Assembly: GCF_003014695.1 (NCBI RefSeq)
Contig: NZ_PYAS01000003.1
Span: forward strand, 496,001 to 560,000
DNA: 64,000 nt
Source: Dyadobacter jiangsuensis
GTDB taxonomy: Bacteria > Bacteroidota > Bacteroidia > Cytophagales > Spirosomataceae
Direction: 5' to 3'
Positions 185 to 15,132 of this stretch are shown here, piece by piece. The notes beneath the pieces are model-generated. The model was not told the origin of the DNA and ran no database searches. It worked only from the letters and a program-made list of their open reading frames with translations. Every line of letters starts with the position of its first letter. The first letter of the stretch is position 1. A program made the translations under genes and the position numbers.

Positions 185-1945
185 TTAATCAATCCATCCC
201 GGGTTTTGCACCAGCTTTGGATTCATTTGAATCTCACTGGTAGGGATCGGCCAGGTCATGAGGAAATCTCCTTTGTAGGAATAATCGCTCACATTGGCGC
301 CCCAGATCTGTTTCTTGCCGTTTCCGGTATAGAACACTTTCTCGCCCCAGGTTTTCCAACGCAGTTCATCGAAATAGTTAATGCCTTCACCCGGCAGTTC
401 GACTCTCCGTTCGTTGCGGATTCTTTGCCGCAAATCTTCCTGGCCCTTTACGGCCGTCGCCGCATTCGAATTCAGCAGTGCCACCCCGGCTCTTTTTCGT
501 ACTTCGTTCACTTTCTCTACCGCCTCGGCAGTGGCCCTGGACTCGTTCAGTGCTTCGGCCCACATCAGCAGCACGTCGCCGTATCGCAGGATCGGGAAAT
601 CGGTAGGCCCGTAGTTGCGGTCGATCAGACCCGAAACGCCCTCGATCACGAACTTCCGGTAGAAATAGTAAAAGTTGATCTGCGTATCGCTCTGGATATC
701 ACCGCCCGTGGCGGCCTGTCCCCGGAAAGGCCACCGCATCGTTTGCAGGCTTTCCACATCGGTAAAATTGAACGCACCGCGGAACGTGGCATAAGGCGTA
801 ACTACATTGGCCTGTAAACGAGGGTCCCTGTTTTCGTAGGCTTTTTTAATTCGCTCCTCATTCCCCTGTGGCAGGTACAAACTCATCTTAGCGCCCCGTG
901 CACTCGCCGCGGCATATTCTTCGGTGGTGATATTGTTTCTCAGGAAAAATACCTCGCGTTCTGCCGCAGTAAGGCCGGAAAAGCCGGGGATGATATCGTC
1001 CCATTTGAACCGGGTGCCGTCGATATTTTCGTGGAGGTCCACCAGATTCGGGGAGGGCATGTAATAGTTCCAGCCCCGGCGAAATGCCGAAGGCCAACCG
1101 ATAAACAGCTGAAAGTTGTTTCCATATCCCTGCTCGCCGCGGTGCTGGATGGAGAAAATCATCTCAGGGCATTGTTCGTTGGCTTCGGTAAATAATGCCT
1201 TGTAGTCGCCGAACAGCGTATGCCCGGCATCTTTTACCTTCTGAAAATCGGCTGATGCTTTTTCCCACTGTTTCAGGTACATGTAGACTTTCCCGCGCAA
1301 TGCGTAGGCGGCAGCTTTGGTTGCATGGCCGTAGTCCACATTCCCGCTGGCATAGCGGTCGGGCAGATTCGGTTCATTGATGCAATCGTTGAGGTCGGCA
1401 ATTACCTGGTTCCAGACCTCCGCCTCGGTAGCCCTCGCTTTGGTCGCTTCGGTAGGGGTAAAGGGTTCGAGGTAAATAGGTACGCCTTTGTACACCTGAT
1501 TGAGCCGGAAATAAAAATAGGCGCGCAGGAATTTACATTCAGCCAGGTAGCGCGCTTTCTTCTTCTCGGTGGAAGGTGATTTTGCCGGAATATTCAAAAG
1601 GGCGTCATTGGCGCGCTGAATACCTTCGTACATATGCTGCCACACTTTCGAGAACATGGCGTAGCCGGCGGTAATAGTGCCCCGTAGCAGCGGTTCATCC
1701 CAGCGCCCCTGCCCGGTGTACCCAAAGCGGTCGGTCTGGTAGAGCTCATGCACGGTCGTGAGGCCGCTGTGACCCATTTCAAGCCTGAAAGTATTGTAAA
1801 CACCGGCCACGCCAAGATCGGTCAGGTTATCGGTCGTCCACATGGTTGCATTGGAAACAGAGGAGTAGGGGGCTGTATCCAGCAGATTATCCTGGCAGCT
1901 GCCCAGGCAGAGCGCAATGATTATAGCAAAATATTTTTTCATCAC
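185..1945 (-). CDS. SusD/RagB-family glycan-binding outer-membrane lipoprotein
   Basis: A 586-residue surface lipoprotein that would bind oligosaccharides and lid the SusC channel encoded just upstream. The N terminus is a lipoprotein signal ending in LGSC, with the acylated Cys at residue 17. The helical TPR-like SusD pattern follows, with 'LAECKFLRAYFYFRLNQVYKGVP' -like helix around residues 133-155 given here only by its key parts (AECKFLRAYFYF), then 'PILRYGDVLLMWAEALNE' near residue 450 and 'RNERRVELPGEG' near 515, all diagnostic of RagB/SusD proteins. It starts 9 bp after SusC and clearly shares its transcript. The substrate cannot be read from the sequence; neighbouring LacI, lyase and GntR genes make an acidic (uronate-containing) glycan a guess only. 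Confidence 0.95.
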   Translation of the reverse strand: MMKKYFAIIIALCLGSCQDNLLDTAPYSSVSNATMWTTDNLTDLGVAGVYNTFRLEMGHSGLTTVHELYQTDRFGYTGQGRWDEPLLRGTITAGYAMFSKVWQHMYEGIQRANDALLNIPAKSPSTEKKKARYLAECKFLRAYFYFRLNQVYKGVPIYLEPFTPTEATKARATEAEVWNQVIADLNDCINEPNLPDRYASGNVDYGHATKAAAYALRGKVYMYLKQWEKASADFQKVKDAGHTLFGDYKALFTEANEQCPEMIFSIQHRGEQGYGNNFQLFIGWPSAFRRGWNYYMPSPNLVDLHENIDGTRFKWDDIIPGFSGLTAAEREVFFLRNNITTEEYAAASARGAKMSLYLPQGNEERIKKAYENRDPRLQANVVTPYATFRGAFNFTDVESLQTMRWPFRGQAATGGDIQSDTQINFYYFYRKFVIEGVSGLIDRNYGPTDFPILRYGDVLLMWAEALNESRATAEAVEKVNEVRKRAGVALLNSNAATAVKGQEDLRQRIRNERRVELPGEGINYFDELRWKTWGEKVFYTGNGKKQIWGANVSDYSYKGDFLMTWPIPTSEIQMNPKLVQNPGWID

Positions 1946-1954
1946 TTATCTTCT

Positions 1955-4900
1955 TTAAAATGAAACATTCAACCCCAGCGAGAACTGGCGCATGGTTGGG
2001 TAATTGGGGTTAGGCCCGATTTCAGGATCCAGTCCGGGAAACTTCGTGAGCGTCAGCAGGTTTTCGCCGGCCAGGTAAACCCGCAGTTTGCTCATGGCCA
2101 GTTTGCCCGTCAGCCGGTTGGGGACGGTGTACCCGAGTTGAAGGTTGCGGAGTTTTGCAAATGAGGCATTGTACAGGTAGAAATCACTCGTACGGCCGTT
2201 CTGTGCGTCCGTTACCCCTTTGAGGCGCGGGTAATGCCCGTTCAGGTTATTGGCGGGGTCGGTGGCGTTGGATTCATTGTAATAATAGTGGTTGTCCGCC
2301 ACGAGTGTCGGTACCGATTTCCCCTGTGCCACAATCGATTGGTTCAGGTAAATGGTGTTCCAATAGTAATGCATGCCTGCCGCCCCCGACCAGATCATCG
2401 AAAGGTCGAACCCGCGGTAAGACAGGTTGAGCGTGAGCCCGTAGTTAATGGAAGGGGTGGCGCGTTTTCCGGTAAACTGCTGGTCATACACGTTGCCGTA
2501 GATGCCGTCGCCATTGGTGTCTGCATAAATCAAATCCCCGTACCAGATTTTGGTCGGGTCGATGCCGTCCGCAGGCTGAAACCGGTATCCGGCATCGACC
2601 ATTCCGCGTAACCACGTCAGATCTTCTGCCGTACGGATCATCCCGTCGCGCGGGCCTCCGTTGACATCCAGAGAACCATCGGAATGCCGGTAATTGCCCG
2701 AACCTTTATAAACCGGGTACAAGTAAAGTTCGTTGATGGCATGTCCTTCCAGGATGCGTTCGGTACCGCCTGTCGACACCGTGCCGATATTGGACTGGTA
2801 AACGCGACTCCCCGAAACGTCCGCATATCCTTCCTGCAACTTGCCTTTATAGGTGTCGACACGGTTGGTGTTGTAGGCAAAATTTCCCGAGATCGAGTAC
2901 TGGAAGTCGTTGATCCGGTCCTGATATCCGACACTCAGTTCGATACCGCGTTTGGTTACCTCGGCTATGTTCATCGTGGCCGGACTGGCAGTGCCGACAA
3001 TCAGCGGAACATTGGGAGCGAAAAGGATACCATCCGTAAAGCCTTTGTACAGATCCAGTTCGAAATTCAATCTACGCCGGAGTGCAAAGCCACTGAGCCC
3101 GATGTTGGTCGTGGTGGTTGTTTCCCATCTCAGGTTCCGGTTACCGGTTTTGGTTTGGGCGAGGCCTTTGATTGCCGTGTTGTTGAAAGAGTAATTCACC
3201 GTTCCGTACGCAGGCAGATGATCATAGTTGCCTGCGGCATTGTTTCCGGTACGTCCCCAGGAGGCACGGATACGGATATCGTCGAAAATGTCGGTCAGCG
3301 GCTGCATAAAAGCTTCCTCCGAAATGCGCCAGCCCGCCGAAAATGCGGGGAAAAAGCCCCACCGGCTCGACTCGCCGAAACGCGACGATCCGTCGTACCG
3401 GAATACGGCCTCGGCCAGGTAGCGTTTTTGGAAGGAATAGTTGAGCCGCCCGAAAACCGATTTCAGTCCGTAGTCCGTCTCGTCGCCGTTGATGCCCGTC
3501 ATGGTAGTCCCCGAATTCAGTGTCGTCAGGTCGGGATGTGTCAGGCCTTGCTTGGATGCGTCAAAATTGTATTGGTTGAAATACTGCTGGTTGTAGCCCA
3601 CGAGTGCGCCTACTTCGTGATGGGTAAATTCCCGGTTGTAGCGGAGCACATTGTCCAGGATCATATTCCGGCTTTTATACAAAGAGTACCGGGTGGTCAT
3701 TTGCGCGGCAGGCTGCGCGGCGGTACTCAATGTGTTGGTGGCGAAGTTCCACTTTTCGTACGGGATAGGGTTCGTATTGTTCTCGGTATAACCCTGATTG
3801 TAATGCACTTTGGATTCAAATTCCAGTCCTTTGAAAATATCGACCTTCGCAAACAATGTCGTATTGATGCGGCTCACACGGTTGTTGCCGCCTTGTCCGT
3901 ACAGCCAGGCGATGGCGTTGTTGGCCGTTGCCGATTCCTCCGCAGCTGCCGGAAAGCCATATTTGCCCTGGTAGACCGGATAAACGCCGGGCACCGTCTG
4001 GGTAAGGTAGGAGTAGGCGGTAGCCACGTCGGCCACGCTGGTATTCTGAAGGTCGCCGAAAGTTTGTGTACCCACGGTCAGGAATTTGGCCACTTTGGAT
4101 TGCAGGTTGATCCGCATCCGTACATTGTCGGCGCCGGTTTCGGGCATGGTACCCGGGTTGTTCAGATAACCCACCGAAAACAGGTACTGCGTATTTTCCG
4201 AGCCGCCGTTGAGGGTCAGGTTATGGTTTTGCAAAAGCCTGCGCTCCCCGAACAGCACCTTTCCCCAGTTGGTATTCGGATAAGCCACACTGTTGGGAAT
4301 GCCCTGGTCGGTCAATGCGTCGGGGTTAGCCCTCGCCGTTTCCCATTTTTCAATCGTGGGATTGGAATACACCGACGCTTGCCCAAGGTTGTTAAAACCC
4401 TCGTTGACCAGGCGCATATGGCGGGCATAATCGGTCACAAACTCCGGCACATTGTTGGGGCGCAGGAGGGAGGTCATCACCGTGTAATTCACCGAGGTTT
4501 TGCCCTTGGTACCCTTTTTAGTCGTGATAAGGATAACACCATTGGACGCAAGGGAGCCGTAAATAGCCGCAGTGGCTGCGTCTTTGAGCACCGAAATGCT
4601 CTCCACGTCATTTGGGTTCACGGCGTCCATCGAGCCTACCACGCCGTCGATCACGACCAATGGAGAGGTGCTGTTCAATGTGCCCGTACCCCGTATGCGT
4701 ATACTGGACCCGTCCGCGCCCGGCCTGCCCGTGGTTGCCTGCACGTTGACGCCCGCGGCCAGCCCCGCCAGCGAAGAAGATAAGGTCGAAGCCGACCTGT
4801 TTTCGACAGATTGCGCATTGATGGTGGCCACGGAGCCGATCACGTTCCCCTTTTTCTGAGTACCGTATCCCACTACCACCACCTCGTCCAGGCTCCGCTC

Positions 4901-5596
4901 GTCTACTTTCAAAGAAACCTCGATCAATGTCTTGTTCCCGACCGCCTGGATTTCCTTGCTTACATAACCGACAAATGAGAACACCAGAATGGCATTTTCA
5001 TCGGGTACTTCCAGACTGAAATTCCCATCGCGGTCGGAAGTCGTCCCTTGCTGCGTGCCTTTGATGATGACATTGACGCCCGGGAGCGCTTCTCCTTTTT
5101 CGTCGGTCACTTTTCCTTTCACGGGCAGGGTTTTCGTTTCGGGACGCTCGTCCTGCGAATCTTTTGGCGGCATGGTCGTCGGCCCCCCTGTCTCTTTGCC
5201 ATTCTGGGAGCTTTTGAGGATGTACACCATGCTACCGGTATTCATATACGTTAAATGCAGCGAGCCGAGCATTCTATCGAGCAGCTCCGTTACCCGGTAG
5301 GTGCCTTTGCCGACGACAAAGCGGGCTTCGGCGTCGACCTGGTTCTCGATGAAGGCAAAGCGAAGCGGGGTTTGCTTCTCGATTTTGCGGAACAGATCCC
5401 GCACACCTTCGTTTTTCAGCTGAATGGTAACCTGGATCTCGGCCAGGGGCTGAGCTTCGGAAGGTCGTGCGGCCATGAGCTGAATGCAGCTTATAGCGAT
5501 GATTATGTAGGATAAACCTAAGCGCATAAGAAATCGGAGACCGGGCTGATGGTTGGAAAGTGCATACCTTCCCCCGATGATAAAGTTTTTGTACAT
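1955..5596 (-). CDS. SusC/RagA TonB-dependent receptor with N-terminal STN signalling domain
   Basis: A 1213-residue outer-membrane importer. In order: a signal region (about 1-48), an STN domain (about 55-128) that in this family contacts a FecR anti-sigma factor, a carboxypeptidase-regulatory-like domain (about 158-232, with GKVTDEKGEALPGVNV), a TonB-box-like stretch (DEVVVVGYGT, 237-246), the plug with VLKDAATAAIYGSLASNGVI, and a 22-strand barrel ending in the aromatic FSLGLNVSF. Having an STN domain while the upstream genes are a sigma factor and FecR shows that this is a transducing receptor: substrate binding outside should release the sigma factor inside. The ATG at 5596 gives a long n-region; the Met at residue 24 is an alternative start with a more ordinary signal peptide. 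The partner SusD follows after 9 bp. Confidence 0.96.
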   Translation of the reverse strand: MYKNFIIGGRYALSNHQPGLRFLMRLGLSYIIIAISCIQLMAARPSEAQPLAEIQVTIQLKNEGVRDLFRKIEKQTPLRFAFIENQVDAEARFVVGKGTYRVTELLDRMLGSLHLTYMNTGSMVYILKSSQNGKETGGPTTMPPKDSQDERPETKTLPVKGKVTDEKGEALPGVNVIIKGTQQGTTSDRDGNFSLEVPDENAILVFSFVGYVSKEIQAVGNKTLIEVSLKVDERSLDEVVVVGYGTQKKGNVIGSVATINAQSVENRSASTLSSSLAGLAAGVNVQATTGRPGADGSSIRIRGTGTLNSTSPLVVIDGVVGSMDAVNPNDVESISVLKDAATAAIYGSLASNGVILITTKKGTKGKTSVNYTVMTSLLRPNNVPEFVTDYARHMRLVNEGFNNLGQASVYSNPTIEKWETARANPDALTDQGIPNSVAYPNTNWGKVLFGERRLLQNHNLTLNGGSENTQYLFSVGYLNNPGTMPETGADNVRMRINLQSKVAKFLTVGTQTFGDLQNTSVADVATAYSYLTQTVPGVYPVYQGKYGFPAAAEESATANNAIAWLYGQGGNNRVSRINTTLFAKVDIFKGLEFESKVHYNQGYTENNTNPIPYEKWNFATNTLSTAAQPAAQMTTRYSLYKSRNMILDNVLRYNREFTHHEVGALVGYNQQYFNQYNFDASKQGLTHPDLTTLNSGTTMTGINGDETDYGLKSVFGRLNYSFQKRYLAEAVFRYDGSSRFGESSRWGFFPAFSAGWRISEEAFMQPLTDIFDDIRIRASWGRTGNNAAGNYDHLPAYGTVNYSFNNTAIKGLAQTKTGNRNLRWETTTTTNIGLSGFALRRRLNFELDLYKGFTDGILFAPNVPLIVGTASPATMNIAEVTKRGIELSVGYQDRINDFQYSISGNFAYNTNRVDTYKGKLQEGYADVSGSRVYQSNIGTVSTGGTERILEGHAINELYLYPVYKGSGNYRHSDGSLDVNGGPRDGMIRTAEDLTWLRGMVDAGYRFQPADGIDPTKIWYGDLIYADTNGDGIYGNVYDQQFTGKRATPSINYGLTLNLSYRGFDLSMIWSGAAGMHYYWNTIYLNQSIVAQGKSVPTLVADNHYYYNESNATDPANNLNGHYPRLKGVTDAQNGRTSDFYLYNASFAKLRNLQLGYTVPNRLTGKLAMSKLRVYLAGENLLTLTKFPGLDPEIGPNPNYPTMRQFSLGLNVSF

Positions 5597-5666
5597 TTAC
5601 CAGACGTTTTTAGTGATAGCCAATTATTAAAAGCGACACCCGTTCGTTACGCCTAACTTGCGGGTT

Positions 5667-5699
5667 AAAAAGCCTTTCGGTTCCCGCCGAAGGGCTTTT
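5667..5699 (-). terminator. Hairpin terminator/attenuator between fecR and susC
   Basis: A 13-bp stem (5668-5680 with 5687-5699, one wobble) around a 6-nt loop is followed on the minus strand by five U residues (5671-5667). It lies in the 236-bp gap between fecR and susC. The gap and hairpin suggest that susCD has its own promoter within 5597-5666, or that the hairpin attenuates read-through. No clear TAnnTTTG was found there. Confidence 0.6.
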
Positions 5700-5832
5700 G
5701 CTTGAATGCGGTATGAGTTTTCAGGTACAAAGGCGGCATTCAGCCGTCTCTGGGGAAAATCGTAAGATCTGCTCCGTACGACATCGTTTTCAGGGTTTAG
5801 TAATGATAATCAGGGTTCATAGCGGCATTGCA

Positions 5833-6876
5833 CTAATCACAGGAGCCACCTTCTATTGAGACATGGCCGTTGTCGATGGTGTACGTTGCGCCAATCATTT
5901 TAGAAAGTACCGTTAGGACGGTTTCCAGGTTCTCATGATGCATGAATGAGGCGGTAATCCGGCATTTCTTGACTTCCGCGCGGCTAAAAGCCAGTTTTAC
6001 ACCGTAATGTTCGCCGATGAGCTGGCCCGCTTTTTCGAGATCGATATTGTCGAGTACCAGGTAAGCGTCTTTCCAGGCGGTTTCTTCGGTGGCACTCACC
6101 GAGGCCGTATTGTATTGTTCCGTACGGGTATTGACGGTAATCTGCTCGTCCGGCTTTATTTTCGCATATACGCGCTCCGTGCTGCCGACTTCCACCAATC
6201 CCCGGGTAACTGTGACGACCACTTTGTTTTCCTGCATGTTCACATTGAATGCCGTCCCGAGTACCCGCGTCACAACCGTTCCCGATTTCACCCGGAAGGG
6301 CTTCGCCGGGTCGTGAGCAATGTCAAAATAGGCTTCTCCGTGCAAGGTCACGTCGCGTGACCCGTTCCGGAATGACGCCGGCGAATAAGTGAGCTCTGCA
6401 TCCTCGTTCATAAGCACCGTGCTTCCGTCCGGTAGCGTTAAGAATTGCTTTCCCCGCACTACCTGTGTTTCGTCTTGCCGGGACGGCTGGTCGTTGCGGG
6501 TAATGTTCATTTCGGCGGTTTGGCTGCTCCGTAATGTCAGCCACATGAAGCCGCCCAGGGCCAAAAGGACAGCCGCAGCCCAGCTCCACCACATGGTAGC
6601 GCGTTTGGCCTGGGGGCGTGTAGTACCTAGGATATTGGTCAGGATTTCCTCGCGCGCCTTTCCGGGCAAGGTTGTTTCTGCGGGATCCTCGTCGGAATGC
6701 GCGTCCAGCCACTCCTGAAAGCGGAACTCATAACCGTTTTCGGTCAATCGCCGGAGCTCTTCTTTTTCCGGGTCTGAAGCGTCTCCTGCCAGATACCTGG
6801 TCATGAGGAAATCAAATCTTTCCATTCCCGATTGCGGGAAATCGTTGGCGGCATTCGAATGGGTGTCAATGCTCAT
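5833..6876 (-). CDS. FecR-family anti-sigma factor (inner-membrane)
   Basis: 347 residues. A cytosolic N-terminal part (1-93) would hold the ECF sigma factor. One transmembrane segment lies near 94-114 (Trp/Ala/Leu rich). A periplasmic FecR domain spans about 138-230 (LPDGSTVLMNEDAELTY, GEAYFDIAHDPAKPFRV), and a C-terminal DUF4974/secretin-like module about 270-345 would touch the STN domain of the receptor. The order sigma, FecR, STN-SusC, SusD is the classic Bacteroidota cell-surface signalling array. The gene starts 109 bp after the sigma factor gene and shares its direction. The C terminus ends in GGSCD, a lone Cys near the end that is unusual but not obviously functional. Confidence 0.95.
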   Translation of the reverse strand: MSIDTHSNAANDFPQSGMERFDFLMTRYLAGDASDPEKEELRRLTENGYEFRFQEWLDAHSDEDPAETTLPGKAREEILTNILGTTRPQAKRATMWWSWAAAVLLALGGFMWLTLRSSQTAEMNITRNDQPSRQDETQVVRGKQFLTLPDGSTVLMNEDAELTYSPASFRNGSRDVTLHGEAYFDIAHDPAKPFRVKSGTVVTRVLGTAFNVNMQENKVVVTVTRGLVEVGSTERVYAKIKPDEQITVNTRTEQYNTASVSATEETAWKDAYLVLDNIDLEKAGQLIGEHYGVKLAFSRAEVKKCRITASFMHHENLETVLTVLSKMIGATYTIDNGHVSIEGGSCD

Positions 6877-6985
6877 GAGGGCATTTGTTTTTCTGCGAAC
6901 ATAGAACTGTATCAGGACCGGGAATGGCCCTTTACTTCACATGTCTCCTGAAAAAGCGGTAGGGGGCAATTTTTTCTAAAAAAAA

Positions 6986-7579
6986 TTATTTTGCCGTGAA
7001 GATCAGCAGCCAAAAGAGGGTTTCGGCCTTTAAAACAGGGTCGAGGCGGGTGCGGATAAAACGGAGAATGCGCTTCATATGCGCTTTGACCGCCAATCTC
7101 GAAAGGTTCATCCGCTCGGCGATGGCCTCGTGGGTGAGGCCTTCCTCCCTTGCCAATTGGAAAATCTCCTGCTGATGGTCGGGCAGACTGCGGATCGCCT
7201 CTTGCAACAGCCTCTCACGTTCGTCTTCCTGGACCATCCGTTCCGTAGCATTATCGGCTTGTTCCTGGTAGCCGATTTCGCGGATCATTTCGATGAAGTT
7301 AGATTTGCGACGGTAGGCGTCGAAAACCTGTTTTTTGGCCATTCCGTGCAGATATGCCCCAAAATTCAGGACGTCGGGCATTTTATTTCGTCTTAACCAT
7401 ACATCCATGAAAACGTCCTGCACAACTTCCTCCGCGGCGTGTGTAGAGTTCAGAAATTTCAGGGCAAGCCGGTAAACCTTGGGGCTGTATGCATCGAAAA
7501 TCCACACAAAGGCTGATTCGCTCCCCTCGGATAGCTCGCGCAGCACCTCGCGCTCGTTCTCTGATTTGTGCGTAGCCAT
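6986..7579 (-). CDS. ECF RNA polymerase sigma factor, FecI-like
   Basis: 197 residues, the usual size. Region 2 covers about 28-63 (Y-P-x-V-Y-x-L-A-L-K-F followed by AEEVVQDVFMDVWLRR), the core-binding and -10 recognition part. Region 4 covers about 123-178 with a helix-turn-helix (LTHEAIAERMNLSRLAVKAH) for the -35 element. It is followed by its FecR anti-sigma gene. It should activate its own operon or susCD when the surface receptor is occupied. It is divergent from the LacI-type gene, with 128 bp between starts. Confidence 0.95.
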   Translation of the reverse strand: MATHKSENEREVLRELSEGSESAFVWIFDAYSPKVYRLALKFLNSTHAAEEVVQDVFMDVWLRRNKMPDVLNFGAYLHGMAKKQVFDAYRRKSNFIEMIREIGYQEQADNATERMVQEDERERLLQEAIRSLPDHQQEIFQLAREEGLTHEAIAERMNLSRLAVKAHMKRILRFIRTRLDPVLKAETLFWLLIFTAK

Positions 7580-7707: not shown

Positions 7708-8721
7708 ATGAAGGAGTTAGTTACGATCAAGGAAATTGCCCGTCAACTAAGCGTTTCCGTTTCTACTGTTTCCCGCGCTCTTCAGAATAACCCCCGGATT
7801 GGTTTGAAAACCCGTGAGAGTGTTCAGGCGCTTGCCGGCCAGCTTAAATATTCCCCTAATGCAGCGGCGCTTCATTTTCGGTCGGGGAAGTCGGGTATCA
7901 TTGGCGTTGTGCTGCCCGAGATCAGGGAGAATTTCTTTTCCGAAGCACTTAACGGCATCGAGACGATCGCGCTGGATCAGAAATTTCTCGTTGCCTTGTA
8001 CCAATCGCATGACTCTTTTGAACGGGAAAAGCAGATTTTGGCGGCTTTGACTGCAAACCGTGTGGAAGGGATTCTGCTTTCGGCCGCCAAAGAATCACAA
8101 AGTTTTCAGCACGTTCAGGACGTTATTACCCAGCAAATTCCCGTGGTGTTGTTCGACCGCATACCGCCTGGTATTCAGACCCACCAGGTAGGATGTGACG
8201 TCAAAAGCGGGGCATATCAGGCTACGAAATGGCTGGGTGCACAAGGTTTCAGGCGCATTGCCCTGCTGAATGGCCCGGCAACGCTGGTTGCCTGTGACGA
8301 CCGGTACGAGGGATACATTAGGGCGCTGGTGGAGAATGGCTTGGCTGTCGAGAATGCCCTGATAAAGCGGGTTGACCTGACACCGGAGGATACAGCCAGG
8401 AAAATGGCACAGTTGCTCACCCTGGACTGCCGGCCGGACGCTGTTCTGGCATTCAACGATTATGTTGCCCTCGACGCGATGCGGGTATGCCGGAACCAGG
8501 GCGTGATCATCAACAGGGATATTTCGTTTGCCAGCTTCGCCAATTTACCGATGAATATGTATCTCGAACAGCCTCCCCTGGTTTCCGTCGAGCAGCATCC
8601 TTTTGCGATTGGGCAAAAGGCGGCCGAGATTTTGATAAAAAGTATCCGGTCGGGTAGCGGACCTGGTTCGGACGGGTATGAGCGTGTGATCATCGATTCC
8701 CAGCTCAAAGTTTGGCAGTAG
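7708..8721 (+). CDS. LacI-family transcriptional regulator
   Basis: 337 residues from the ATG at 7708; an in-frame TTG at 7702 is a less likely start. The N-terminal helix-turn-helix (ITIKEIARQLSVSVSTVSRAL-type, residues about 3-24) and hinge (YSPNAAAL, giving the Leu lever used to open the operator) are canonical. The rest is a periplasmic-binding-protein-like sugar sensor (IIGVVLPEI, VEGILLSA, IPVVLFDRI, DAVLAFNDYVALDAM). Such proteins repress or activate sugar genes in response to a carbohydrate effector. Two near-identical palindromes of LacI type lie 46 and 67 bp after its stop codon, before the lyase gene, which makes that lyase its probable target. Autoregulation is not visible. Confidence 0.95.
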   Translation: MKELVTIKEIARQLSVSVSTVSRALQNNPRIGLKTRESVQALAGQLKYSPNAAALHFRSGKSGIIGVVLPEIRENFFSEALNGIETIALDQKFLVALYQSHDSFEREKQILAALTANRVEGILLSAAKESQSFQHVQDVITQQIPVVLFDRIPPGIQTHQVGCDVKSGAYQATKWLGAQGFRRIALLNGPATLVACDDRYEGYIRALVENGLAVENALIKRVDLTPEDTARKMAQLLTLDCRPDAVLAFNDYVALDAMRVCRNQGVIINRDISFASFANLPMNMYLEQPPLVSVEQHPFAIGQKAAEILIKSIRSGSGPGSDGYERVIIDSQLKVWQ

Positions 8722-8764
8722 CATTTACCTTCCCGGGTGTTCAACCCTTACAAGGCATTATTTT

Positions 8765-8780
8765 GCGCAACCGGTTGCTC
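8765..8780. promoter_or_regulatory. LacI-type operator, copy 1
   Basis: GCAACCGGTTGC (8767-8778) is a perfect 12-bp palindrome with the central CG pair typical of LacI/PurR-family operators. It is the same core as copy 2, with centres 21 bp apart, i.e. two helical turns and therefore on the same DNA face. Location between the lacI-type gene and the lyase supports control of the lyase. Confidence 0.7.
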
Positions 8781-8782
8781 AG

Positions 8783-8804
8783 GCTACGCAACCGGTTGCG
8801 TAGC
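8783..8804. promoter_or_regulatory. LacI-type operator, copy 2 (22-bp perfect palindrome)
   Basis: The 22 bp are perfectly self-complementary; the inner 20 are CTACGCAACCGGTTGCGTAG. Without a loop it is a poor terminator, so an operator for a dimeric regulator is the better reading. It lies about 197 bp upstream of the lyase start codon, so it could work as a repressor site near a promoter or as an activator site. Confidence 0.75.
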
Positions 8805-9000
8805 GTGTTTATTGTGATTAACATGCTTTTGCGCTTTCCCAATACTTTCATTACCTGCGCGATATCCTTTAATTAGCAGGTGTTCTAATACCATCGCCCT
8901 CTTCTTAGCATACTTCCACTCCTGGCAGGATTTCCTGACAAAGCAATTCCTATTTCGCATACCTGATAAATTCGATTGCTATTGCTAACCTTAAACCTAG

Positions 9001-12000
9001 ATGAATATGAAGCGAAGAGTTGTACTGTTTTTTGCATTATTCCTATTAGTAAGTTCGGGGGGCTTTGCCCAGGTTTACATTGATTCGACCCATTTCAATT
9101 GGTCGCGGATCGAGAGTGCCGACCCGGTTGCCCCACTCGTAACGAGCGATGCGGACAATGGTGACGGCGTTGCGGACGGCGCCATGGTGTTAAAGACGGC
9201 TGCCACTACACCCGCATTGCAAGGCGTCCAGTATCAGTTGGGGGGAACCGCGGCATTGGGGCAAGTTTTGAATCTCGAAACCAAGTATTACCAGATCGGC
9301 GCGTCGTACCTGAAATTCAAGATGCAGGTATATAACAATACCGATAATGTTGTCCTGGCGCAGACGGGTGATTTCACCACTGCCACAGGCGTTGTGGGAA
9401 CAGGGACATTGTCTTACACATTCACTACGGCAAGTGTCGGGGATCAGATAACCGTGAGATTTCTCAGGTCCGATGACCTGAATCCGGTACGTTCCGCGGG
9501 CATCGATTACCTGAAAATCAATACGAAGTTTGCCCGTATGACGCCGCCGGTCGTTGTGGGGCAGTTGATGATCGACGAGGAGAATTTCAACTGGTCGAGA
9601 ATAGAGAATGCGAATCCGGTGGCCGCCATTGTCAAGAACGACCAGGATAACGGCGACGGCCTGGGCGACGGTGCTTTGCAGATTAAAGGCACAGCCAATA
9701 CGCCCGCTGTGCAAGGGATACAGTATATGCTGGGCGGAACTCCCGTGGAATACGAAAAGCTGGACCTCGAGATCAAGTATTATGCCAATTCGACTTCCTA
9801 TACGAATTTTCGAATGCAGGTTTACAATGTGACCGATGATGCAATATTGGCCGAAACCGCAACACTGGGCGTAACGGGCGTGGCCGCCGGTACCGTGGCG
9901 CCGGTCTTCGCAGCCTCATTGACCTATTACTTCACGCAGGCCAGTGTAGGCGACCAGATCGCCGTACGATTTGTTCGGAAGGACGATCTCAATCCGGTTC
10001 GCATTGTGGCGATCGATTATCTGAAGGTGAACTCGAAGTTTACGAATATGCTGCCCATCTGCAAGCCTGATTTCAGTTTTGATCTTCCGCTCACCGCCGC
10101 GACTCCCACTGAAATCAGCGACCTGGAAACAATCCGGAACAGCCTCTTCAACCAATTGTATACCTCGGTACCACCCACGACCGAAGAAGTAAATACGGCA
10201 TTGGCGCAATATGATTTGCTGAATATTCAGGCTACCGGTACCGACATTACCGGAACGCCCGTCACAGCTCCCGGCCAGTTTGCATTTCTGGCCACATTTG
10301 CGCGATATCTCAAATTCAACCCGTCGGATACAGCTGTCGGTCATAAGGCTTCCAACGCCGTTTGGTATCTCGCCAAGCAAAACTGTAATAACACCAACGC
10401 CGCCCTTACTTTTTATAACTTTCCCCGCTTTTCCCGACCTGCCATTTTTCTGAATGACTACCTCTCGCCCAAGGTGAAAGCCCTCTTTGGCAACACGCTG
10501 TCGACGGAAACGGCGCTGTTTCAATACATCTTCGACGAAAATTATGATTTTGCGACCACTGCAACCAAAGGTGCCATCAATACCGATGTGATTTACCTCG
10601 ATCTGGACGTGTTGTTCGCATATGCCGACTGGTTCGATACGAACGATGAGAAAATCAGGTACCTGAAAACGATCAAGAGGTTTTTGGAGCGTTTCGTGAT
10701 CCACACCAATGGCAAGGCCGACGGGTTGAAAAAGGACGGTTCGGGCTTCCATCACGGGTCGGCGTACGATGGTTATATGTACGCATTCAGCACCGCCGCG
10801 ACTGTCATTAAATCGTTGGAGAATACTGTTTTTCAGATCGACCTGGCTTCGTACACCCGTTTCAGGGACGCGATTTATGCACAATCCATTTACAGCAGCG
10901 ATTCGGGGATTATACCGCTTTCCATGACGGGAAGGAATCCGCAGACAAGAACGACCTCACTCGCGGCTTCGACGCTCGCCAAACTTGCCATTTCGGGCGG
11001 TAAGATACTGGGGCTGTCCACCGCAGACCCTATACTGGCGGGTAACTACAACCGGAAGTACGGGGTTAACAGCGAGTTCAATCTGAATACGGTAACGCCT
11101 TTTGAAGAAGGGTACATTCAGTTTAACTACGGAAACCTGGGCGTTTACCGGAAGAACAACTGGGTTGCTACGTCGCGGGGATTTTCCCGGGAGTTGTTTG
11201 GAGCGGAGATTTACATCAAACAAAACCGTTTCGGCAGGTACCAGAGCTACGGCACATTGGATATTGCTTACCCGGGGAATACGGTAACCGGCAACGGGTT
11301 TGACCTGGCAGGGTGGGATTGGAATTTCAATCCGGGTGCGACGACGATCGTTCTGCCATGGGATAGCTTAGGGGCCGAAAAGAGCCGCGTCGACGAACTT
11401 AACACATACAGCTTTGCCGGATCGCTGGTTTTGAAGCAAGCGGGCAAAGCGGTGCTTTCCAAAACAATGGGAGAGAGCGGCTTGTTCGCGATGAGGTTTA
11501 AGGAGCGGGGTGATCTGGGCTTTGGAACGACTTACGGACCGCCTACCCACAATGCAACCTTTGAATTTACCAAAACCTATTTTGCCATCGAAGATTACAT
11601 CATTTGTCTCGGCAGCGGAATCAAAAATAACGACGTCAACCACCCGACGGTTACCACATTGTCGCAAAGATTGAACAACAATGCCAATGACTTGTTTGTC
11701 AATGGGGCTGTTAAATCCAGCCAAAGTGCGGAGGCATTTGCGGGTTCGGGGCCAAACTGGGTATTGGATAATTACAAAACAGGATATTATATCGCACCGG
11801 GCTCGGGGACGCTCAAAATCCGGAATTCGCTGCAACAGAGTCCCTATCAGAACCAGGAGTTTCCGTCGGACTCTCTCATTGCCACGAACGGATCCAACAA
11901 TTACCGGCTGGCCTACCTGGACCACGGTACCGCACCGGTGGACAATGCATACCAGTTTGTTTGCCTTCCCGGTTCGGATACCGCAAGAATGGCACAGTTC

Positions 12001-13065
12001 AGCCAGGCGATGCAGGATGAGCAAACCAGGCCCTTCACGGTTCACGCGAATACGCCTGCGGCGCAGATCATCGAGCATAGATCGTCCAAAACATGGGCAT
12101 ATGCGCTCCCGCTGGCTAATGCATCGATCGACAGCGGTATCGTGGCGTCCAATGATACCCCATGCCTGGTGATGTACCGCGGTGTGAACAACAGTTACAG
12201 CCAGATCCTGCTCTCGATCAGCAACCCCGATATGGGGACGTCGCCGTCGACGCCCAAGACCGTCAGGTTGAAGCTCCGTTACGAATGGACGCTCTCCGGT
12301 GACCCGAATGCCGCCATCGTATCGTCTGACTCTACCGGTACTGTTATTGACTTCGTACTTGCGGATGGCTTCCCTGTGGAGGTGACTTTGACAGCCGTAT
12401 GCGCGCCCGTGCAGGTAACCATCGCCGACGTGTACGCGATGAACCCCACGGTGGATTTGAAAAATACCATTTACCTTGGCTACGGGCCAGCGTCACTCAC
12501 CACCACCGCCACGGCTGCCGGTGCGCAAGGCTACGCATACAGTTGGAATACGGGACAACGGACGCAGGCGATCTCGGTTTCGCAGGCTGGTACCTACACT
12601 GCGACAGTTTCTTATGCCGGTGTCTGCGAGGCGAAGGCGTCGGTCAACATTGGTGTACTGGACGTGAGATGCGGCAATGGCAACGATAAGGTGATGATTT
12701 GTCATAACGGCAAGACGATCTGTGTGGCACCGGCGGCTGTTGAGGCCCATCTGGGACATGGGGATAGTCTTGGCTCGTGTGGCGCCGGAGCGCGCCTGGG
12801 TGTGTCCGCGGATGAGGAAATCAAGTTGGCTTCAAGTATTGCGGTTTATCCTAACCCCGCGCCCGAGAAGTTCTATATTACTGTGCCGAAATTGGAGGCT
12901 AATGCAGCGGTAACGTTGTATAATGCACGTGGAGAGGCCGTTCGTACTTTCCGTTTGGCTAACGTAAGACAAGAAGTGTCGCTTAAAGGGCTGCCGACCG
13001 GAATGTATCTGGTAAATATCCGCAACGGGAATCAGACTACCGTTAAAAAGATCATCAAACACTGA
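9001..13065 (+). CDS. Secreted polysaccharide lyase family 8-like enzyme with T9SS sorting domain
   Basis: 1354 residues. Signal peptide 1-24 (ending GGFAQ). Two tandem copies of a beta-rich module follow (about 25-175 and 186-350); both start with FNWSRIE and contain DNGDG..DGA and DDLNPVR..IDYLK, and look like carbohydrate-binding domains. An alpha/alpha-toroid catalytic domain (about 360-700) has DGSGFHHGSAYDGYMY at about 579-594, matching the His/Tyr catalytic segment of chondroitin AC/ABC and hyaluronan lyases. PL8 beta-sandwich domains follow (about 700-1120), then an Ig-like stretch, a Cys/His motif (ICHNGKTICV ... AHLGHGDSLGSC, about 1232-1261) and a T9SS type A domain (VYPNPAPEKFYI to the end). 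PL8 enzymes beta-eliminate uronate-containing chains; the exact substrate is open. It is likely controlled by the LacI-type protein upstream. Confidence 0.85.
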   Translation: MNMKRRVVLFFALFLLVSSGGFAQVYIDSTHFNWSRIESADPVAPLVTSDADNGDGVADGAMVLKTAATTPALQGVQYQLGGTAALGQVLNLETKYYQIGASYLKFKMQVYNNTDNVVLAQTGDFTTATGVVGTGTLSYTFTTASVGDQITVRFLRSDDLNPVRSAGIDYLKINTKFARMTPPVVVGQLMIDEENFNWSRIENANPVAAIVKNDQDNGDGLGDGALQIKGTANTPAVQGIQYMLGGTPVEYEKLDLEIKYYANSTSYTNFRMQVYNVTDDAILAETATLGVTGVAAGTVAPVFAASLTYYFTQASVGDQIAVRFVRKDDLNPVRIVAIDYLKVNSKFTNMLPICKPDFSFDLPLTAATPTEISDLETIRNSLFNQLYTSVPPTTEEVNTALAQYDLLNIQATGTDITGTPVTAPGQFAFLATFARYLKFNPSDTAVGHKASNAVWYLAKQNCNNTNAALTFYNFPRFSRPAIFLNDYLSPKVKALFGNTLSTETALFQYIFDENYDFATTATKGAINTDVIYLDLDVLFAYADWFDTNDEKIRYLKTIKRFLERFVIHTNGKADGLKKDGSGFHHGSAYDGYMYAFSTAATVIKSLENTVFQIDLASYTRFRDAIYAQSIYSSDSGIIPLSMTGRNPQTRTTSLAASTLAKLAISGGKILGLSTADPILAGNYNRKYGVNSEFNLNTVTPFEEGYIQFNYGNLGVYRKNNWVATSRGFSRELFGAEIYIKQNRFGRYQSYGTLDIAYPGNTVTGNGFDLAGWDWNFNPGATTIVLPWDSLGAEKSRVDELNTYSFAGSLVLKQAGKAVLSKTMGESGLFAMRFKERGDLGFGTTYGPPTHNATFEFTKTYFAIEDYIICLGSGIKNNDVNHPTVTTLSQRLNNNANDLFVNGAVKSSQSAEAFAGSGPNWVLDNYKTGYYIAPGSGTLKIRNSLQQSPYQNQEFPSDSLIATNGSNNYRLAYLDHGTAPVDNAYQFVCLPGSDTARMAQFSQAMQDEQTRPFTVHANTPAAQIIEHRSSKTWAYALPLANASIDSGIVASNDTPCLVMYRGVNNSYSQILLSISNPDMGTSPSTPKTVRLKLRYEWTLSGDPNAAIVSSDSTGTVIDFVLADGFPVEVTLTAVCAPVQVTIADVYAMNPTVDLKNTIYLGYGPASLTTTATAAGAQGYAYSWNTGQRTQAISVSQAGTYTATVSYAGVCEAKASVNIGVLDVRCGNGNDKVMICHNGKTICVAPAAVEAHLGHGDSLGSCGAGARLGVSADEEIKLASSIAVYPNPAPEKFYITVPKLEANAAVTLYNARGEAVRTFRLANVRQEVSLKGLPTGMYLVNIRNGNQTTVKKIIKH

Positions 13066-13152: not shown

Positions 13153-13185
13153 TAGCCGCGGGCGTATTCCTGTTTTTTTTGACTC

Positions 13186-13220
13186 TTTGCAGTATTTTTT
13201 CCGAAACCCATCTATCTTTG
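13186..13220 (+). promoter_or_regulatory. Promoter of the FadR/GntR-type gene
   Basis: TATCTTTG (13213-13220) is an exact TAnnTTTG -7 element, and TTTG (13186-13189) lies 23 bp upstream as the -33 element. Transcription would begin near 13224, about 9 nt before the ATG at 13233, giving a very short leader. It also excludes the longer frame that opens upstream at 13179. Confidence 0.6.
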
Positions 13221-13223
13221 TCG

Positions 13224-13242
13224 TCAGATGATATGATGAATA
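13224..13242. promoter_or_regulatory. Candidate GntR operator, copy 1 (autoregulation)
   Basis: TCAGATGATATGATGAATA is repeated exactly at 13912-13930. It contains a TCA-GA-TGA inverted repeat of the kind bound by winged-helix GntR dimers, and sits at the predicted transcription start and start codon of the regulator gene. Confidence 0.5.
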
Positions 13243-13892
13243 CGCCGATAACTAAAAGATCCTTAGCCGACGAGGTAGCGAACCAGATCAAGGCCTATAT
13301 CCGGTCGGGACATTACGTGGCCGGTCAGCGGCTGCCTACGGAACCCGAATTGATGAAGCAATATGGGGTAGGGCGGTCTTCCATTCGTGAGGCCGTCAGG
13401 ATGCTGGCGAATTCCGGTTTGCTGCGTGTGCAGCAAGGGCTTGGGACATTCATCAATGAGTTTGTAGAGGATAATGAAACCTTACACCAGCGTTTGAACC
13501 GTGCTGCGGCAAAGGACATTGACGAGGTAAGGCAGCTCCTGGAAGTGAAGATCGCGCAAAAAGCCGCGCTCAACCGCACGCAGCAGCAACTCGACGAAAT
13601 CGAAGGTTTCCTGAACGAGCGCATCCAGGCGGCTCACCAGGCAAAAATCGAGGAATGCATCCAGGCGGATATCAACTTTCACGTCAGCATCGCCAGGGCG
13701 GCGGGTAATGAAATTCTGGCCGATATGTATGCTGCATTTTCGTCCCGACTGAAAAGCTGGTTTTTACAAATTCACTCCGACACCAGCTCGTTCATTCAGA
13801 CCAATGATCTGCATAAATCGCTGTTTCTGAGCATCAGAGATGGGAACGAAGAGCAGGCATTGCGCTTTGCCAGAGAAATTTTAAGACACTAA
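13233..13892 (+). CDS. FadR-subfamily (GntR/FCD) transcriptional regulator
   Basis: 219 residues from the ATG at 13233. The winged helix-turn-helix fills about residues 8-72 (LADEVANQIKAYIRSG, LPTEPELMKQYGVGRSSIRE, GLGTFI). The C-terminal FCD domain has the expected metal/effector residues Asp and His in ADINFHVSIARAAGN, and a further His in NDLHKSL. FCD regulators commonly respond to sugar acids, lactate or other small carboxylates. The gene is followed after 28 bp by an MFS transporter that begins with the same 19-bp element, so both are likely controlled by this protein in one unit. Confidence 0.93.
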   Translation: MMNTPITKRSLADEVANQIKAYIRSGHYVAGQRLPTEPELMKQYGVGRSSIREAVRMLANSGLLRVQQGLGTFINEFVEDNETLHQRLNRAAAKDIDEVRQLLEVKIAQKAALNRTQQQLDEIEGFLNERIQAAHQAKIEECIQADINFHVSIARAAGNEILADMYAAFSSRLKSWFLQIHSDTSSFIQTNDLHKSLFLSIRDGNEEQALRFAREILRH

Positions 13893-13911: not shown

Positions 13912-13930
13912 TCAGATGATATGATGAATA
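13912..13930. promoter_or_regulatory. Candidate GntR operator, copy 2 (at the transporter start)
   Basis: An exact second copy of the 19-bp element at 13224-13242. Here the left half is ACATCAGATGAT, improving the inverted repeat to ATCA-GA-TGAT. Its last ten bases are the first codons of the transporter gene, so part of the identity may come from a shared Met-Met-Asn start. Confidence 0.5.
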
Positions 13931-15132
13931 ATCCGACCGCCGAGCAATTACCCGCATCCGTTTTGCCACCCGCCAAAACGGTGTACCCGATCCTCTTTGC
14001 GATCAGTTTCGCACATTTGTTGAATGATACGATGCAGGCAGTCATTGCGTCGATTTATCCCTTGCTCAAAGTTGACTTTCACCTGAGTTTCGCCCAGATA
14101 GGTCTGGTGACATTGTGCTATCAAATCACGGCCTCTCTGTTGCAGCCGTTTGTGGGGCTTTATACCGACAAAAATCCTAAACCTTTCTCGATAGCTGTGG
14201 GCATGGCTTTCTCGCTCATCGGGGTTCTGTCGCTGGCCTGGGCAGATTCCTTCGGGCTGGTGTTAATCGCTGTGAGTCTGATCGGTATTGGTTCTTCCAT
14301 TTTTCACCCGGAGTCGTCACGCATTGCCCATTTGGCTTCCGGCGGCAAGCGGGGGTTCGCGCAGTCGTTTTTCCAGCTGGGCGGCAATAGCGGTAGCGCC
14401 CTGGGGCCGTTGCTGGCAGCATTAATTGTCGCTCCATTTGGTCAGCACGGCATTATGTGGTTTTCAGTTGCCGCGATTCTGGGCGTGATGCTGGCCATCC
14501 ATATCGGGAAATGGTACAAAGGCAGCGCATCGCAGAGAGCGGCCAAAACAGTGTCCGCTGTCCACAGTTCGCTGAGTCAGAATAAAGTGGTTTTCTCGCT
14601 TGTGATCCTGCTTATCCTGATTTTCTCCAAATATGTGTATCTGGCGGGCATGACGAGCTACTATACCTTCTTTCTGATGAATAAATTCGGCCTGACCATT
14701 CAGGAGTCTCAGATTCAATTGTTTATATTCTCGTCAGCCGTTGCCATCGGCACAGTCGCCGGCGGGCCGATAGGGGACCGGTTCGGACGTAAGTATGTGA
14801 TCTGGATTTCGATTCTTGGAGCTGCCCCGTTCACGATGCTGCTGCCGTATGCCAATCTGTTTTGGACCACCATTCTCGCAGTTTGCATCGGCCTGATTAT
14901 CTCTTCTGCCTTTTCGGCCATTGTGGTTTATGCCCAGGAGTTGGTGCCCGGCAAAGTAGGGTTGATTGGCGGCTTATTTTTTGGATTATCTTTCGGTATG
15001 GGCGGGCTCGGTTCAGCATTGCTGGGTACCCTGGCGGATCATACGAGTATCGAATATGTGTTTCAACTTTGCGCGTTTTTGCCGCTGATCGGTATTATCA
15101 CCGGGCTCTTGCCGAAACTGAAAAACGGGTGA
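13921..15132 (+). CDS. MFS transporter, fosmidomycin-resistance (FSR) family
   Basis: 403 residues, about 12 membrane segments. The family signature is seen in FAHLLNDTMQAVIASIYP near residue 30 and the IGSSIFHPESSRIA loop near residue 125, both characteristic of Fsr-type exporters. A second MFS loop (GGPIGDRFGRKYV, near residue 280) is present. Inner-membrane proton-driven efflux is the family role; the real substrate here is unknown. It directly follows the FCD-type GntR gene and begins with the same putative operator, so export of a compound sensed by that regulator is likely. An ATG-ATG start at 13921 is used. Confidence 0.92.
   Translation: MMNNPTAEQLPASVLPPAKTVYPILFAISFAHLLNDTMQAVIASIYPLLKVDFHLSFAQIGLVTLCYQITASLLQPFVGLYTDKNPKPFSIAVGMAFSLIGVLSLAWADSFGLVLIAVSLIGIGSSIFHPESSRIAHLASGGKRGFAQSFFQLGGNSGSALGPLLAALIVAPFGQHGIMWFSVAAILGVMLAIHIGKWYKGSASQRAAKTVSAVHSSLSQNKVVFSLVILLILIFSKYVYLAGMTSYYTFFLMNKFGLTIQESQIQLFIFSSAVAIGTVAGGPIGDRFGRKYVIWISILGAAPFTMLLPYANLFWTTILAVCIGLIISSAFSAIVVYAQELVPGKVGLIGGLFFGLSFGMGGLGSALLGTLADHTSIEYVFQLCAFLPLIGIITGLLPKLKNG

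Follow-up and report, generated by a model that had tools for sequence, protein, structure and literature searches.

Gene content of the locus

The plus strand of the window (the whole 64,000-nucleotide stretch of Dyadobacter jiangsuensis DNA that was analysed) carries a LacI-family regulator, a pair of palindromic sites, a PL8 lyase, a GntR/FCD regulator, and an MFS gene, in this order. A SusCD array with its sigma and anti-sigma factor genes lies on the opposite strand (Table 1).

Table 1. Features of the locus in window coordinates
Feature	Position	Strand	Remarks
SusD, SusC, FecR-type anti-sigma factor, ECF sigma factor	185–7579	−	
LacI-family regulator	7708–8721	+	PF00356, PF00532 and PF13377 above cut-off
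Block identical to D. fermentans	8759–8805	.	47 bp; intergenic alignment
Operator 1 (putative)	8767–8778	.	GCAACCGGTTGC, central CG, centre 8772.5; same letters in D. fermentans
Operator 2 (putative)	8783–8804	.	perfect 22-bp palindrome GCTACGCAACCGGTTGCGTAGC, centre 8793.5; same letters in D. fermentans
PL8 lyase (predicted target)	9001–13065	+	PF02278, PF09093; type IX sorting tail
GntR/FCD regulator	13179–13892	+	
MFS	13921–15132	+	

The regulator combines an N-terminal LacI helix-turn-helix with a periplasmic-binding-protein-like sensor domain, which places it in the LacI/GalR family. Its recognition-helix region, VSVSTVSRA, spans residues 16–24, and its hinge has the conserved Ala (Ala54, invariant) and the hydrophobic wedge residue (mostly Leu) of the family; the latter is Phe57 in the window protein. 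Among 87 distinct LacI proteins, the wedge place is occupied by Leu (78), Phe (6), or Ser (3, probably a one-residue shift in numbering). A structure model, used for the fold only, has a mean pLDDT of 84.6, with values below 50 in the hinge (residues 51–60), and its nearest solved folds are CcpA, RbsR, and PurR. Residues 71–77, 150–153, 199, 250–252, 276, 277, and 279 are the same in each of the 21 orthologues aligned and, by comparison with LacI and PurR, presumably line the sugar pocket.

The nearest solved relatives of the lyase by sequence are the chondroitinases 2q1f and chondroitinase ABC (7eip, 1hn0), and its alignment to 2q1f retains the FHH...Y and PLSM.GR segments. The N-terminus (window positions 9001–10050) contains two similar modules, IDSTHFNWSRIES... 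and IDEENFNWSRIEN..., about 165 residues apart and ahead of the PL8 catalytic part.

A unique pair of LacI-type sites

The sequence-only reading described GCAACCGGTTGC as present twice, once within a perfect 22-bp palindrome, with centres 21 bp (two DNA turns) apart; direct reading of the sequence bears this out. The second copy occupies positions 8788–8799. Perfect palindromy extends over all 22 bp of operator 2 but is confined to the 12-bp core of operator 1. An even palindrome of 16–22 bp with a central CG, located beside a regulator gene as found here, is characteristic of a LacI-family operator. The even palindrome, the central CG, and the combination of a TVSR motif with a G at the sixth base from the centre are also among the LacI-family features in the published descriptions available (PMC2978694, PMC4052901).

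In the 8.27-Mb genome, there are only two exact copies of GCAACCGGTTGC, both of which belong to the pair. Matches to GCAACCGGTTGC with up to two mismatches are not enriched in the window (6 versus 3.55 expected; a count of 6 or more in 17 of 100 shuffles). An isolated loose match is therefore meaningless, and it is the pair that counts. The genome has one match to the relaxed pair CAANCGNTTG-N11-CAANCGNTTG, at this locus, and of the 222 family genomes 22 have such a match. A version with 22-bp spacing, absent from the window's genome, is present in 48 of the 222, whereas the reversed controls gave no match for either spacing (0/222 for the 21-bp pattern). With a chance expectation of 0.002 per genome by plain arithmetic, the operator pair is not a product of chance.

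Additional targets elsewhere in the genome were considered and rejected. Of 48 copies of GCAACCGGTTGC with one mismatch, 47 fall inside open reading frames of at least 90 amino acids (six-frame ORFs, not curated genes), a second exact pair is absent, and the cluster of GHMP kinase and GH109 genes discussed below has no pair. The sole intergenic copy is a hybrid site, GCAAACGGTTGC, between a DUF5723 and an ATP-grasp gene (L195:1230).

Only one other genome searched, that of Dyadobacter fermentans JDP9 (L001), has the same gene run (regulator 88% and lyase 92% identical). The palindromes should persist where both genes are kept, and in this one case they do: the 40 columns from 8765 to 8804 are all identical, compared with 163 of 241 in the rest of the intergenic alignment. 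Lyase matches at E = 1e-60 or better were found in 4 of the 222 family genomes. One (G152; 61% identity) lies in a sigma/FecR/SusCD locus that also encodes another PL8-like and a GH88-like protein, where the 19 kb read contain no LacI gene, exact site, or pair. The 12 kb read around a lyase match of 35% in G104 contain neither a pair nor a LacI relative. With sigma/FecR/SusCD, two PL8-like, GH88-like, and GH16 genes, the G152 locus (L207, G152:C18) is a fuller glycosaminoglycan-type locus than that of the window.

Paired sites accompany the regulator lineage

Orthologues of the regulator, defined by at least 57% identity, were compared first at 20 loci from named records (Dyadobacter, Spirosoma, Larkinella, Rudanella, Fibrella, Arsenicibacter, Siphonobacter, and a metagenome-assembled genome of Spirosomataceae). 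An exact pair lies within 260 bp of the regulator in 18 of them; in L009 the pair is 4 kb away, before a GH109-like gene, and in L020 (Siphonobacter) there is only a pair with one mismatch per site, downstream of the regulator. Among all 37 distinct orthologues, 29 have a pair at 21–22 bp within this distance; the eight others are L009, L083, and six Siphonobacter-type loci (L020, L103–L107). Pairs with this spacing are thus conserved across orthologues, in the manner of a double operator.

An exact pair at 21 or 22 bp is present somewhere in all 37 genomes with an orthologue but in only 27 of the 185 genomes without one (Fisher p = 4e-25, kinship ignored). Because of these 27, the pair alone does not name its regulator. 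Near pairs also accompany 10 of the 24 fetched LacI proteins with 40–57% identity, and 2 of the 26 fetched with less than 40%; the latter count is biased, because the last two loci were fetched for their pairs. Pairs at 21 bp that read CAAACGTTTG were also observed in five genomes of genus g8 (L063–L067 and L137), with no LacI relative in the stretches read. Together, the pair in the window, its uniqueness in the genome, its conservation, and its link to the lineage, all obtained by computation, back the assignment of the pair to the adjacent regulator in the sequence-only reading. That the regulator lineage goes with paired sites is well supported by the sequence comparisons, and the system in the window appears to be an ordinary local switch whose target and site sequence are unusual.

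The position of the pair differs among the relatives. In the 27 near-pair orthologues outside the two Dyadobacter species, it precedes the regulator, in most cases by about 85 bp. A downstream position, before the next gene, was found in the window, in D. fermentans, and in four genomes of the same genus with a relative of 41–45% identity. When the first near pairs of 41 regulators are considered, all six downstream pairs are spaced by 21 bp, whereas 31 of the 35 upstream pairs are spaced by 22 bp and 4 by 21 bp. At L128 (G019:C13:40278–40330), a LacI and a GHMP kinase gene are separated by three successive LacI-type sites with spacings of 21 and 22 bp, the third site forming a second downstream pair at 22 bp.

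The double-site architecture itself is of a kind already known. Even palindromes paired at 21–22 bp have been described for RafR of Enterobacteriales and ScrR of Burkholderiales and were read as obligatory cooperative binding, and the histogram of site distances in the LacI family peaks at 22 bp (PMC4052901). The similarity to these cases lies in the two even palindromes and their spacing, whereas the regulators, sugars, and phyla are different; here, the pair sits between the regulator and a PL8 lyase.

Predicted control of the lyase

The two palindromes are very probably the operators of the adjacent LacI regulator, with the lyase as their target. One regulator dimer would occupy each palindrome, and the spacing of two helical turns would place the dimers on the same face of the DNA; judging from the spacing alone, they would probably bind cooperatively. 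In the absence of the effector, the dimers would hold off transcription of the lyase, and they would come off in response to a sugar derived from breakdown of the glycan, constituting a single-target local switch in the window's genome. We infer binding, cooperativity, repression over activation, the lyase as the target, and the effector; repression is assumed from the family of the regulator. In the other near-pair orthologues, where the pair lies upstream of the regulator and before a divergent neighbour (GH109-like in those examined), the regulator would also control its own gene.

The proposed control of the lyase is in keeping with the position of the pair, whose last base is separated from the ATG by 196 bases, and the lyase is retained as the candidate target. 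The same cannot be said of the SusCD array, which had been suggested as a possible second target: ECF sigma and FecR genes of its own stand at its head, and about 1.2 kb, with the regulator gene in between, separates it from the pair. Between the sigma factor and the regulator gene there is neither an exact site nor a pair; the one other exact site, at 2332, falls within SusC.

The promoter of the lyase was not recognised. Between regulator and lyase, neither the window's genome nor D. fermentans has a match with up to one mismatch to the Bacteroidetes-type promoter (consensus TTG, 17–23, TAnnTTTG), and sigma-70-like matches between the genes are at chance level only; the point of repression is therefore not placed. 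From the operator centres to the start codon of the lyase it is 207 and 228 bp, which is long for the family: in a published survey of LacI regulators, more than 75% of the sites lie at 30–140 bp and about 7% beyond 200 bp (PMC4052901).

Instead of repressing a promoter that overlaps or follows the pair, the regulator could, though this is unlikely, activate the lyase or stop transcripts that run on from its own gene. The distance of more than 200 bp to the start codon and the unrecognised promoter would agree with such a role, as would the lack of an exact site before the regulator, so that the usual autorepression is not seen. However, most members of the LacI family that control local sugar genes act as repressors, and the conservation extends about 25 bp downstream of the pair, which leaves room for a promoter.

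The possibility that the inverted repeats form the terminator of the regulator gene, with the two copies pairing as an RNA hairpin, is very unlikely. The RNA of 8722–8830 does fold at −43 kcal/mol, compared with a shuffle mean of −24.8 kcal/mol (z = −5.9), and there is one terminator-like match, at 8783–8804, 61 bases past the stop codon. Perfect DNA palindromes, however, fold by construction; the region's single match compares with a shuffle mean of 1.8, and the stem is followed by the tail GTGTTTATTG, which lacks the U run of an intrinsic terminator. Moreover, termination is impossible in 27 of the 29 distinct near-pair orthologues, where the pair lies upstream of the regulator.

Hardly any probability attaches to operators of another protein, be it the GntR/FCD regulator in the same gene run or a LacI paralogue: although the genome holds 12 LacI-type matches in all and the pairs in the 27 genomes without an orthologue indicate that other LacI proteins use such pairs, the pairs follow the lineage of the adjacent regulator across genera, the fetched loci have no relative of the GntR gene, and the genome contains no second pair for a paralogue.

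The preferred reading, operators of the adjacent regulator, would put a chondroitinase-like PL8 lyase of Bacteroidota under a one-component switch. In Bacteroides thetaiotaomicron, where a regulator has likewise been assigned to glycosaminoglycan use, chondroitin and hyaluronan are under the hybrid two-component system BT3334, according to the available part of the report (PMC3878776), rather than under a one-component LacI regulator. Among the titles and abstract openings of the open-licence literature, no LacI regulator of chondroitin or N-acetylgalactosamine (GalNAc) loci and no tandem sites in Bacteroidetes or Dyadobacter were recognised as the same system.

Targets in relatives and the putative effector

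Outside the two Dyadobacter species, the pairs of the orthologues examined front GH109-like or kinase genes or the regulator itself. GH109-like proteins are encoded beside the orthologues in L004 (with SusCD and a DUF3472 gene), L008, and L016 (with a sulfatase). A galactokinase-like GHMP kinase occurs together with a GH109-like gene in L009, L014, L020, L128, and L129 and with a nucleotidyltransferase in L020, L113, L132, and L134; the kinase is present also in L121 and L131. The kinases that were tested matched galactokinase and mevalonate kinase models alike, below every NCBIfam cut-off, and the tested GH109-like protein matched a glycoside 3-dehydrogenase model, also below the cut-off.

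In Fibrella, a second pair (L014:11821–11852; 22 bp, one mismatch) is located just before a minus-strand run of GH109-like and GHMP kinase genes, which were identified in L014; L015 has a similar second pair, some 3.8 kb past the start of the regulator gene. On the basis of these sites, the run is likely a second target of the orthologue.

An effector with galacto-configured amino sugar structure, such as GalNAc, is our first guess, with uronates as the second. It is suggested by the kinase and GH109-like targets of the relatives in combination with the GalNAc locus of B. thetaiotaomicron (BT4240–4250), which comprises a GalNAc kinase, an MFS transporter, and a GH109 alpha-N-acetylgalactosaminidase; the kinase is said to serve also the GalNAc of chondroitin sulfate (PMC11992087). 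The grouping of sugar kinase, MFS, and GH109 genes recurs in the window's own genome, and pairs of several relatives front kinase or GH109-like genes, but the B. thetaiotaomicron kinase belongs to the APH family, unlike GHMP, and a LacI regulator is absent from the portion of the description available. A GalNAc-type effector would fit a chondroitinase-like target. The reading is weakened by the window's own genome, where a GHMP galactokinase-like gene, an MFS gene, and a GH109 gene form one run (L151, G000:C4) that has no LacI-type pair. Assignment to a class of GalNAc-responsive regulators, which would control GalNAc-type genes in their own genome, was rejected for this reason; a response to GalNAc is kept as a hypothesis from the relatives.

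An effector in line with the lyase product proposed in the sequence-only reading, a uronate either unsaturated or free, is rather unlikely. PL8 lyases produce unsaturated uronides, a GH88-like gene accompanies the G152 lyase, and four LacI regulators of Bacteroides have been assigned to uronates by comparative genomics, as far as the available part of that study indicates (PMC3878776). By contrast, the targets examined in relatives include galactokinase-like kinases, nucleotidyltransferases, and GH109-like proteins, and none was recognised as a uronate gene. The amidohydrolases fronted in L108 and L116 fit neither reading clearly. In L126, the pair fronts a SusC gene, and pairs without a LacI gene nearby (L208, L209, L133) have phosphodiesterase/sulfatase-like, SusC, and YceI neighbours.

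Half-site sequence and the recognition helix

The two Dyadobacter species differ from the other orthologues in the letters of the site. Whereas most pairs of the latter read CAAACGTTTG, with the half-site GCAAAC, those before the PL8 lyase in the window and in D. fermentans read CAACCGGTTG, with the half-site GCAACC; a CAACCGGTTG pair was found in no other orthologue examined. The base at ±2 seems to track residue 18 of the window protein in the recognition helix (position 15 of the published LacI numbering). With Pro at this residue, the base is A in 106 of 116 half-sites; Val goes with C or T in 34 of 40, and Ile with A in 5 of 8. In Fibrella (Pro), the outer half-sites have C and the inner ones A, and the same arrangement is present in L113 (Val).

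This agrees with the code published by Camas et al. (2010, PMC2978694), who reported a correlation of base −2 with domain residues 55, 15, and 5. The resemblance concerns residue 15; the comparison covers a single branch of Bacteroidota, and the window's regulator has Phe rather than Leu at position 54. The link is suggestive only, because there are few independent changes: residue 18 changes at least twice in a tree of the sensor domain, which yields one independent contrast with base ±2 on supported branches and two on all branches, so that significance is unreachable. According to a warning of the tree program, long branches meet at the Dyadobacter pair, whose placement is unsure. By raw mutual information, window residues 49 and 15 rank above 18, but many different letters occur at both. 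The idea that the Phe wedge brings about C at ±2 was rejected, because L108, L113, L116, L118, and L121, which have a Leu wedge and Val at position 15, also have C or T.

It is possible, though on balance doubtful, that one lineage occurs in two states that have kept the double-site spacing: one with GCAAAC, Pro15, a Leu wedge, and GH109-like and kinase targets, and another with GCAACC, Val15, a Phe wedge, and a chondroitinase-like lyase, with Fibrella as a possible intermediate. Both kinds of regulator co-occur in three genomes of one genus, probably Larkinella (G132, G133, and G134), each of which has an orthologue with a CAAACGTTTG pair and a relative of 47–49% identity with a C/T pair. Pro or Val at a single recognition residue, matched against A or C/T at a single base and with both kinds present in the same cell, provides a natural series for testing the published LacI code.
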